Source: an uncultured Synechococcales cyanobacterium (GTDB taxonomy: Bacteria; Cyanobacteriota; Cyanobacteriia; Thermosynechococcales; Thermosynechococcaceae). From it: a stretch of DNA of 64,000 bases. The position numbers and the translations under genes are program-made. The notes under the pieces were generated by a model. It did no database searches, was not told the origin of the DNA, and was given only the letters and a program-made list of their open reading frames with translations. This document shows, in pieces, positions 44,617 to 47,476 of the stretch (positions within the stretch are counted from its first letter, which is position 1; every line of letters starts with the position of its first letter). The DNA lies in contig CADCWO010000103.1 of the NCBI GenBank assembly GCA_902806435.1, positions 63,308-127,307 on the forward strand. The letters run 5' to 3'.

Positions 44617-45033
44617 GAGTCGGCGAATCAATGCATTATTCAGTGATAGGGGGAACGGAGGAAGCAGCGTAATACGCTAGTACACTAAATGGCTGGTTCA
44701 ACGATTTATTTTGATTGGTTGAAGTTCTATGCAGCGGCTTATCACGTTGATTCATTGACCAGCTCAGCCGGCTCACCAGGGTAAAAGTCATTATCCAGGA
44801 GCTCCCTCATACTATAGAAGCACTTTAGGGGAAAGGTGAGACCAGAGACTGTTTCCCCAACAGCCGATGAATACCTTTTTGATAGGCTTTCGGGAGCGTT
44901 TCTGCTAAGTAGGATCTTAGACTGAGATTCTCTTCGAGAATTCAGAAATATCTAGATGTCGGATACGAATCGTTGCTAGCCAACTGCGGCTGTGCTGTTG
45001 CGGCTAGTAGTTGCATTTCAGTAAATGCTCAAT

Positions 45034-45150
45034 TACTAATGAGAGCAAGTTTGATGAACACTTTTTGCCACATGGTGTTTCCACGAAGCAACGTTCGAGA
45101 AAGTCTTTCAGGAAATTGAAGGTGTTAACTATACCCCGCTCTCAGTAGTA
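45034..45150. repeat. 117-base direct repeat, left copy
   Basis: It begins TACTAATGAGAGCAAGTTTG and ends CAGTAGTA. The right copy at 47060-47176 has the same length and differs at only three positions by my reading. It lies 88 bases before the SWIM gene. The preceding stretch from 44617 to 45033 shows no gene that I can support. Confidence 0.92.
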
Positions 45151-45237
45151 TGAATAGCTCGTCAAAAAAACCACAGTGGAAATATCTTGTGGTTGATATA
45201 TTGACTCATTAGCCCTAATGAGATCGCCCTTGCTCTG

Positions 45238-47049
45238 ATGTCTATTCCCTACTTGAGTGAATCTACTATCCGTCACCATGCTACGTCCCAATCCTGCCAA
45301 CGGGGTGAAGACTACTACCGACGGGGAGCTGTTGTTGATGTGTGCCAACGGGGAAACCAGTTTCAAGCCACTGTTGAAGGCAATGAAGTCGAACCTTACT
45401 GTGTACAGATCGCTTTTGATGCGGGCGGCATTATCCGGGTGAGCTGCACTTGTTCCTATGATTTTGAAGGTTGGTGCAAACACATTATTGCTACCGCATT
45501 GGTTTGTCTGCGACAGCCAGAGCGCATCAACCAGCGTCCATCCTTAAACCAACTGCTGGATCAACTCAACTTGGTTCAGATCCAACGCCTCCTGCAGGCT
45601 CTGGTGGAAGATCAACCTACCTTGATAAATCGGATCGATCACTTGGTCAGGCAGATGGCCCAACCCAAGCCACCCTCCACAGTCAAAATCAAGAGACAAA
45701 CAGCGGTCGATCCCAAACCCTATCGCTATCAGGCTCAGCGCTTGATGCGTGAAACCTTGCGTTACTGGGAAGAGGGAGAAGAATACGATCCGATTGATAA
45801 TGAACTGCCTAACCTGCTAGCGCCTGCCCAAGCCTATACGGAGCAGGGAGATGGCAACAGTGCACTGGTGATTCTAGAAGCCATCACTCAAGTGTCTGCC
45901 GAAGATTGGGAGGAGATTGCTGATTATGGAGGCGATGGAGATAGCTTGATTGAACTCCTCGATCCGATTTGGGCCGAAGCGATTTTGAGCGCGGAATTTC
46001 AATCTGGGGAACAGAGGGATATCCAGGTCAATCTGGAAGACTGGCAAGACCGATTGGGAGGGTGTTTTGAACTGAGTGCTGCTGCATTGCGGCAGGGATG
46101 GGACGATCCATTGCTGGTGGCCGTGTTGCAGGGGGAATGTGTGAACCTATGGGATGATGGTCGTCCAGACTATGCTAACCAACTCGTCCAAGTGCGGTTA
46201 CGTGTTCTGGAACGTCAAGGTCGGCAGGAAGAATACCTGAACCTTGCCCATGCCGAAGGTCAGGTTCAGGAGTACTTGACGATGCTAATCCAACTGGGGC
46301 GAATTGCTGATGTTATGGCAGCCTGCAGGCAGCTCACTTGCGCCAAACAAGCTCTAGAAGTCGCAAAGGCACTCCGGGGGCAGGGGGCTTTAACCGAAGC
46401 ATTAGCGATCGCCCAGCAGGGATTGACCCTGCCGGAAGCGGAATGTTGGCAGCCGCGCTGGTACACGATTGACCAGTTTGAAACCCTTGGTTTTGGTCGC
46501 TATCAACTTGCAGACTGGACGAGTGAGCTAGCAGAAGGATTGGGTAATCAGTCTGTGGCACTATCCTCGCGAATTGAGGCTTTCAAAGCCCGTCCCTCCT
46601 TTCGGGACTACCAAAAGGTAGAGGCGCTGGCTGGAGAGCACTGGTCTACTCTGAAGTCAGAGTTGCTCCAGAATCTACACCAGCGAGACAATTGGAGTGT
46701 AGCCGAGGCAAAGGTAGCTGTCTTTCTTCACGAAGGATTGATTGACAATGCGATCACGGCGGTTGAACCCTACGGGAGCCGTCAAATCGTTCAGCAAGTT
46801 ATGGAGGCTGCCATTCCCCACCGACCGGAATGGGTAATTAAAAAGGCGCGTCGCCGAGCGGAAGAAATTATGGATCGGGGTAAATCGGAGGCTTATCAGG
46901 AAGCCGTGAATTGGTTACGCAAGGCGCGGGAAGCTTATCTTCAGAATGGCCAGCAAACTGAGTGGCAGTGCTATCGTGCTCAGTTGATGACCAGCCATGC
47001 TCGAAAATACAAACTGATGGGATTACTCAAACAACGAGATTTAGAATAG
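45238..47049 (+). CDS. SWIM zinc-finger protein
   Basis: A 603-residue soluble protein. The SWIM motif is CTCSYDFEGWCKH: cysteines 70, 72 and 80 and histidine 82, the CxCxnCxH pattern. The rest is helical and repeat-like (for example RLRVLERQGRQEEYLNLAHA and LEVAKALRGQGALTEALAIA), resembling a TPR-type solenoid. Such proteins are found in many bacteria; the domain is thought to bind DNA or proteins, but no function is established for this form. No helicase or nuclease partner is adjacent. The gene sits between two 117-base direct repeats, which makes it look like a unit gained or duplicated as a block. Confidence 0.88.
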   Translation: MSIPYLSESTIRHHATSQSCQRGEDYYRRGAVVDVCQRGNQFQATVEGNEVEPYCVQIAFDAGGIIRVSCTCSYDFEGWCKHIIATALVCLRQPERINQRPSLNQLLDQLNLVQIQRLLQALVEDQPTLINRIDHLVRQMAQPKPPSTVKIKRQTAVDPKPYRYQAQRLMRETLRYWEEGEEYDPIDNELPNLLAPAQAYTEQGDGNSALVILEAITQVSAEDWEEIADYGGDGDSLIELLDPIWAEAILSAEFQSGEQRDIQVNLEDWQDRLGGCFELSAAALRQGWDDPLLVAVLQGECVNLWDDGRPDYANQLVQVRLRVLERQGRQEEYLNLAHAEGQVQEYLTMLIQLGRIADVMAACRQLTCAKQALEVAKALRGQGALTEALAIAQQGLTLPEAECWQPRWYTIDQFETLGFGRYQLADWTSELAEGLGNQSVALSSRIEAFKARPSFRDYQKVEALAGEHWSTLKSELLQNLHQRDNWSVAEAKVAVFLHEGLIDNAITAVEPYGSRQIVQQVMEAAIPHRPEWVIKKARRRAEEIMDRGKSEAYQEAVNWLRKAREAYLQNGQQTEWQCYRAQLMTSHARKYKLMGLLKQRDLE

Positions 47050-47059
47050 TACTCTGAAA

Positions 47060-47176
47060 TACTAATGAGAGCAAGTTTGATGAACACTTTTTGCCACATG
47101 GTGTTTCCATGAAGCAACCTTCGAGAAAGTCTTTCAGGAAATTGAAGGTGTTAACTATACCCCGCTCCCAGTAGTA
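47060..47176. repeat. 117-base direct repeat, right copy
   Basis: It starts 11 bases after the SWIM stop. Relative to the left copy there is T for C in CCATGAAG, C for G in CAACCTTC and C for T in GCTCCCAG. Neither copy encodes more than a chance 26-codon frame, and no inverted ends were seen. Confidence 0.92.
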
Positions 47177-47476
47177 GCATGCTCAAATGGTTTTGCGCTC
47201 CTGGTGTTGCTGCTTCCCTAAGAATTCAATCTCTTCAATTGATTCTGTAAGTCAAATCGGTTCCGCTGGTGTTTCCGGAGTAAAGCTGCTTGCTCCCACA
47301 CGTCCAGGTACAGAGATCTGTTTTGTCGAGGCTGACTGCGGATATCGCTTTTCCTGGGTTCGGTCCCGCCACGGGTATGAACCCAACCTCAATTTCTCCG
47401 ATGGTAGAAGCGCTCCCCTTTAATCAGGGGTGAGAAGAGTTGCTTGTATTCTGGGTGTAAAAAATTCACTTAGATG
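47177..47476. other. 300-base stretch without a supported gene
   Basis: A 78-codon plus-strand frame (47187-47423) crosses it, but it is cysteine-rich and irregular and I do not believe it. A small hairpin CCCCT-TTAATC-AGGGG lies at 47415-47430, close to the end of rpiA. It could act as a terminator for the minus-strand rpiA transcript, but a T-run is missing. Confidence 0.35.

Follow-up and report, generated by a model that had tools for sequence, protein, structure and literature searches.

How does a gene for a zinc-finger protein come to lie between two nearly identical direct repeats, and does such a bracket mark a new kind of mobile system? These questions are raised by a locus in a 64,000-nucleotide stretch of DNA from an uncultured Synechococcales cyanobacterium (the whole stretch is called the window below), in which repeat copies A and B flank a SWIM zinc-finger gene. 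A preliminary description of this locus reported two 117-base direct repeats with three mismatches around the gene, and its coordinates and spacing hold: the mismatches are exactly three, at positions 51, 60, and 109 of 117, and the spacers between the gene and the repeats are 87 bases on the A side and 10 bases on the B side. The direct-repeat match stretches to 123 nucleotides at 96% identity, and the pair is far above chance. The features of the locus are as follows.

45034..47176, plus strand: whole inserted unit, 2143 bp, consisting of MITE A, the SWIM gene, and MITE B; delimited by the empty site in four relatives
45034..45150, plus strand: MITE copy A, 117 bp, with imperfect terminal inverted repeats TACTAATGAGAGC.../...GCTCTCAGTAGTA
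47060..47176, plus strand: MITE copy B, 117 bp, in the same orientation as A and with 3 mismatches to it
45238..47049, plus strand: SWIM zinc-finger protein gene, intact, 603 aa, PF04434 above cut-off
45034..45035 (left copy) and 47175-47176 (right copy): TA target duplication, based on homologs with exactly 2 bases here
47177..47348, minus strand: DUF29 pseudogene, 5' part, from tblastn of DUF29 homologs on the joined flanks
44750..45033, minus strand: DUF29 pseudogene, 3' part, with further stops and a frameshift

What kind of repeat is this? The preliminary description saw no inverted ends, but the repeat starts with TACTAATGAGAGC and ends with GCTC(C/T)CAGTAGTA, forming imperfect terminal inverted repeats (TIRs) of about 29 bases with TA at the tips, and it folds as a hairpin (z of -3.6 to -3.8 on the minus strand). 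A search for the repeat elsewhere in the genome, as that description had proposed, revealed a dispersed family in unrelated flanks: the 4.79-Mb draft genome contains about 13 noncoding copies of 117 to 119 bp (12 full and 1 truncated), a number that comes from a genome sequence search and depends on its sensitivity. All full copies carry the TIRs and have sharp TACTA...TAGTA boundaries, one of them slightly altered (contig C149), and the outer pairs of the TIRs are almost invariant in 15 copies. A lone TIR-like match on contig C264 falls in coding sequence and seems to be due to chance. We also considered the repeat as a structured RNA and rejected this idea, given that the TIRs account for the hairpin and that there is minimal covariation, in 2 of 29 pairs; an Rfam search of the region gave no match.

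Copies A and B make up a subfamily of their own, 71 to 76% identical to the other family members. Members of the family are also present in the Thermosynechococcaceae MAG YX3bin19 (which gave hits identical to those in G003 and appears to be that same genome), in a Coleofasciculus MAG, and in Nostoc and Rhizonema; a plasmid search found none. YX3bin19 has a solo MITE that is 96% identical, and the internal variants of copy A (positions 51 and 60) are common to a MITE copy in that MAG. Copy B is identical at 110 of 110 positions to a MITE at a contig end of the Coleofasciculus MAG (L069:1-110), an identity that could mean either that the element recently passed between distant cyanobacteria or that the bin is contaminated. 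The SWIM gene was found neither with the solo MITE of YX3bin19 nor with the identical one of the Coleofasciculus MAG.

Copies that interrupt genes allow the target of the element to be read. A solo copy at L016:1503-1621 (G000:C124) interrupts a GAF/PAS sensor kinase gene; when the element is taken out and one TA is kept, 602 aa become open, and the PAS domain crosses the join. The same removal, again with one TA kept, opens 298 aa in a second gene of the window genome and 207 aa in a gene of YX3bin19. Because these reading frames reopen upon removal of the element with a single TA left behind, we conclude that the element inserts at TA and duplicates this target. The repeat is a MITE: it is short (under about 600 bp), has no coding sequence, carries TIRs, duplicates its TA target, and is dispersed in the window genome and in other cyanobacterial genomes. 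Another copy of the family, at L004:1501-1619 (C211), breaks an open reading frame that is relaxase-like by eye only.

Which transposase might recognize such ends? The resident IS630 element L079 (1121 bp, with a 343-aa transposase at L079:994-2022 that matches NF033545 at 1e-64) has termini TACTAACC(A/G)GAGC...GTGAACACT, which resemble the end pattern of the MITE and have about 21 of 30 end bases in common with it. Based on these similar ends and the TA target, the repeat is an IS630-type MITE, with TIRs akin to IS630 termini, as in MITEs derived from the IS630/Tc1-mariner group. The window genome carries a heavy load of such elements, with 60 DDE_3 (IS630) matches, many of them truncated, in 4.8 Mb (loci L074-L083). 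A TIR-pattern search of the 278-contig draft found no autonomous element with exactly the TIRs of the MITE about 1 kb apart, which is a weak absence in such a draft, and the parent element is therefore named at the family level only. An end match in Rhizonema (L065) has no transposase alongside.

Did the SWIM gene arrive at this site, or did the repeats arrive around it? In a DNA search of relatives, the left flank of A and the right flank of B matched adjacent stretches of one contig of genome G013, where the homolog encodes a complete DUF29 protein (PF01724, 2.5e-51). With the unit left out, the joined flanks align continuously to four genomes (G017, G013, G045, and G044) at 64 to 65% nucleotide identity, a level at which the homologs are perhaps not strict orthologs, so that the argument rests on the continuity of the gene. 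At the position of the unit, these relatives have two bases. One TA kept at the join restores a Leu codon (CTA), and the frame over the join reads SMLIEHLLK in the window and SILIGHLLK in G013; G044 itself has TA at the target position, and it is precisely at this position that the MITE tips meet DUF29 in the window. The junction was judged by this ungapped codon-level match; an offset scan is uninformative for longer offsets, at which the longer query gains chance matches. The 2143-bp unit thus interrupts, at a single TA target, a DUF29 gene that relatives have in one piece, and the whole of the unit is absent from the homologous site there. Since the flanks are one uninterrupted gene in the relatives, the unit, SWIM gene included, arrived at the DUF29 site. 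The extra stops and the frameshift in the window copy of DUF29 mean either that the insertion dates back some time or that the DUF29 gene was already decaying.

The preliminary description was therefore right that the SWIM gene is part of a movable unit, as the empty site attests, but wrong about the nature of the repeats, which are not private to a cassette and belong to a dispersed MITE family. The empty site also bears on the idea that the SWIM gene is an old resident on either side of which two MITEs inserted independently. The MITE is indeed a common dispersed element, and SWIM is an old cyanobacterial family; yet residence is contradicted by the outer flanks, which together make up a single DUF29 gene found without interruption in four genomes, and by a hand calculation from 13 copies in 4.79 Mb, chance would place only about 0.07 pairs of MITEs within 2 kb of each other. 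We consider this the least probable of all the readings discussed here.

How, then, did the unit arrive? We posit that it is probably a composite, non-autonomous transposon, in which a host-type SWIM gene is held between two directly repeated IS630-type MITEs. The cargo lies between two MITEs, and the outer ends of the unit, the left TIR at 45034 and the right TIR at 47176, with TA at both tips, form a usable left/right TIR pair. In the proposed mechanism, two MITE copies would have come to flank the SWIM gene at an earlier locus; an IS630-family transposase acting in trans would have used the outermost ends, that is, the left TIR of A and the right TIR of B; and the whole segment, behaving like a single oversized MITE, would have moved into a TA of the DUF29 gene, with the SWIM gene as passenger cargo that has stayed open. 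Recombination between A and B could in principle delete the unit and leave one MITE. Some observations weigh against this reading, in addition to the lack of a matching autonomous element in the draft. The two copies differ at three positions, and two of the variants are common to MITEs elsewhere; thus, A and B are not a fresh duplicate pair. The window genome has a single SWIM copy, and neither a second location nor a donor copy of the composite was found in the sample of genomes searched.

The main rival to composite transposition is a capture in two steps, in which a solo MITE first occupied the DUF29 TA and the SWIM gene with one MITE, carried on a circle or other DNA, was then integrated by homologous recombination. 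Both routes lead to the same final sequence, with the SWIM gene as a passenger, and the TA duplication fits both a composite insertion and a MITE insertion followed by recombination, so that it cannot by itself separate the two. Capture has several points in its favor: direct repeats are its expected product, solo copies of the A/B subfamily occur in related genomes, and the differences between A and B are compatible with recombination between two alleles. It needs, however, two events and recombination over 117 bp of homology at 97%, and it predicts an intermediate with one MITE at the site. The preliminary description had likewise supposed that one repeat copy was there beforehand and expected a single copy at the empty site in relatives lacking the SWIM gene; none of the four empty sites has one, each holding the two-base target only, and no relative was seen with a solo MITE there. 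An intermediate solo-MITE state may have existed at the DUF29 site before the SWIM gene arrived, but we regard the two-step route as unlikely overall. One caution applies to the locus as a whole: in a draft of 278 contigs in which several MITE copies fall at the ends of contigs, there is some residual chance of a misjoin at the repeats.

Is there anything about the cargo that would make the unit more than a transposon with a passenger? The protein has an N-terminal SWIM finger with CxC...CxH zinc ligands, followed by a C-terminal TPR-like alpha-solenoid, and residues C70, C72, C80, and H82 are invariant in an alignment of 19 homologous sequences. An AlphaFold2 model (pLDDT 86.8) has the same two parts, and the best structural matches in Foldseek are ZSWIM8 and TPR/IFT solenoids, at low global TM. 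NCBIfam offers no name for the protein, which may serve as a zinc-finger plus solenoid binding or scaffold protein.

Homologs of the SWIM protein are distributed patchily: among 390 genomes sampled from the class, 68 carry them (E up to 1e-20). Some lie on plasmids, including those of Nostoc and haloarchaea; none was found in phage records. Flanking direct repeats are absent at 32 of 32 other loci, one of which has a short inverted match. In the Nostocales, the surroundings of the homologs are conserved and ordinary, and the neighboring gene is one that we read from its sequence as dihydrolipoamide-dehydrogenase-like. No synteny of the SWIM gene with EamA/rpiA was found in relatives, and in G003 rpiA adjoins a methyltransferase gene, without SWIM; the neighbors of the gene in the window are ordinary metabolic genes. 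The window gene groups with that of G002, a member of the same family, in which the context is different and MITEs are lacking, and with a second copy in G318, a member of another family. This grouping makes some horizontal movement of the window SWIM clade likely. On both sides, the DNA homology of the gene has its limit no more than a few bases from the coding sequence. Between the window gene and that of G002, dN is 0.25 and dS is saturated near 2.5, values that indicate long-term purifying selection but say nothing about the time after insertion. The second SWIM copy of G318 (L137, G318:C271) is broken and is 69 to 72% identical to the window protein. Several relatives have only broken or partial SWIM genes (L025 and L035 in G052; L112 in G035:C8; L023 and L033 in G045:C338), which suggests that the family is often being lost.

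The preliminary description had seen in the SWIM gene a candidate for a new system, and one version of that idea is a dedicated mobile cassette for defense or DNA maintenance, with the repeats as its own recombination sites. The N-terminal part of the protein (residues 8-148; window 45238-45684) does have a partial match to the PADLOC phage-defense candidate PDC-S62 (2.2e-22), and the patchy distribution and the plasmid homologs noted above would suit a mobile function. Against this idea, the repeats move without SWIM and SWIM occurs without the repeats, the Nostocales homologs keep their ordinary context, no phage homolog was found, and there is no integrase within the unit; a dedicated cassette is thus very improbable. 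SWIM is a widespread, ordinary cyanobacterial family, for which the PDC-S62 match is the sole hint of defense, and the proposal of a new system is unsupported.

If composite transposition by MITE ends is the correct reading, what does it mean beyond this locus? Most of what is known of composites bounded by MITEs comes from clinical resistance genes, on which strong selection has acted recently. In the present case, the cargo of such a composite is an ordinary chromosomal gene, its host is a free-living cyanobacterium, and the empty site can be read, which suggests that pairs of MITEs provide a general route by which genes relocate. A bolder proposal, that MITE pairs in cyanobacteria regularly capture and relocate host genes and that the SWIM-solenoid gene is a selectively favored, possibly defensive, cargo spread in this manner between lineages, strikes us as improbable. 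The unit is compact enough to let the transposase requirement be tested, and a striking direct-repeat bracket is explained without a new system.

The closest known counterparts are the composite units of Acinetobacter, bounded by 439-bp MITEs, that carry integrons with blaPER-1, blaIMP-5, and blaVIM-2 (PMC3934969; reviewed in PMC10969869). In both cases, two directly repeated MITEs surround cargo other than a transposase, and a gene is interrupted with duplication of the target. The Acinetobacter units have 5-bp target repeats, resistance integrons as cargo, several independent known locations, and MITE ends not assigned to any known IS family, whereas the window unit targets TA, has an IS630-like end, carries one host-type gene, and is known from one location. 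For IR148/mcr-5 and E622, movement of cargo by MITE ends with the transposase in trans is reported as demonstrated (as cited in PMC10969869). The movement proposed here is similar in that the transposase would come from elsewhere; the window unit is known from sequence alone, and IR148/mcr-5 and E622 use other transposase families. Among cyanobacteria, Nezha is a described MITE (Zhou et al. 2008, as cited in PMC10969869). Like Nezha and other cyanobacterial MITEs, the window MITE is short, noncoding, and TIR-bearing, a likeness drawn from the description of these elements. Nezha is IS630-like in character, and to our knowledge, no cargo pair has been reported for it or for other cyanobacterial MITEs. 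The cargo itself recalls eukaryotic ZSWIM8, its best match by sequence as well as by Foldseek, in having an N-terminal SWIM finger followed by helical repeats, but the sequence similarity is limited to the SWIM region (residues 16-130) and the global TM is 0.32. In total, the unit is not a new kind of system; it follows the known plan of a MITE-bounded composite, with a different type of MITE, a TA target, and a host gene as cargo.
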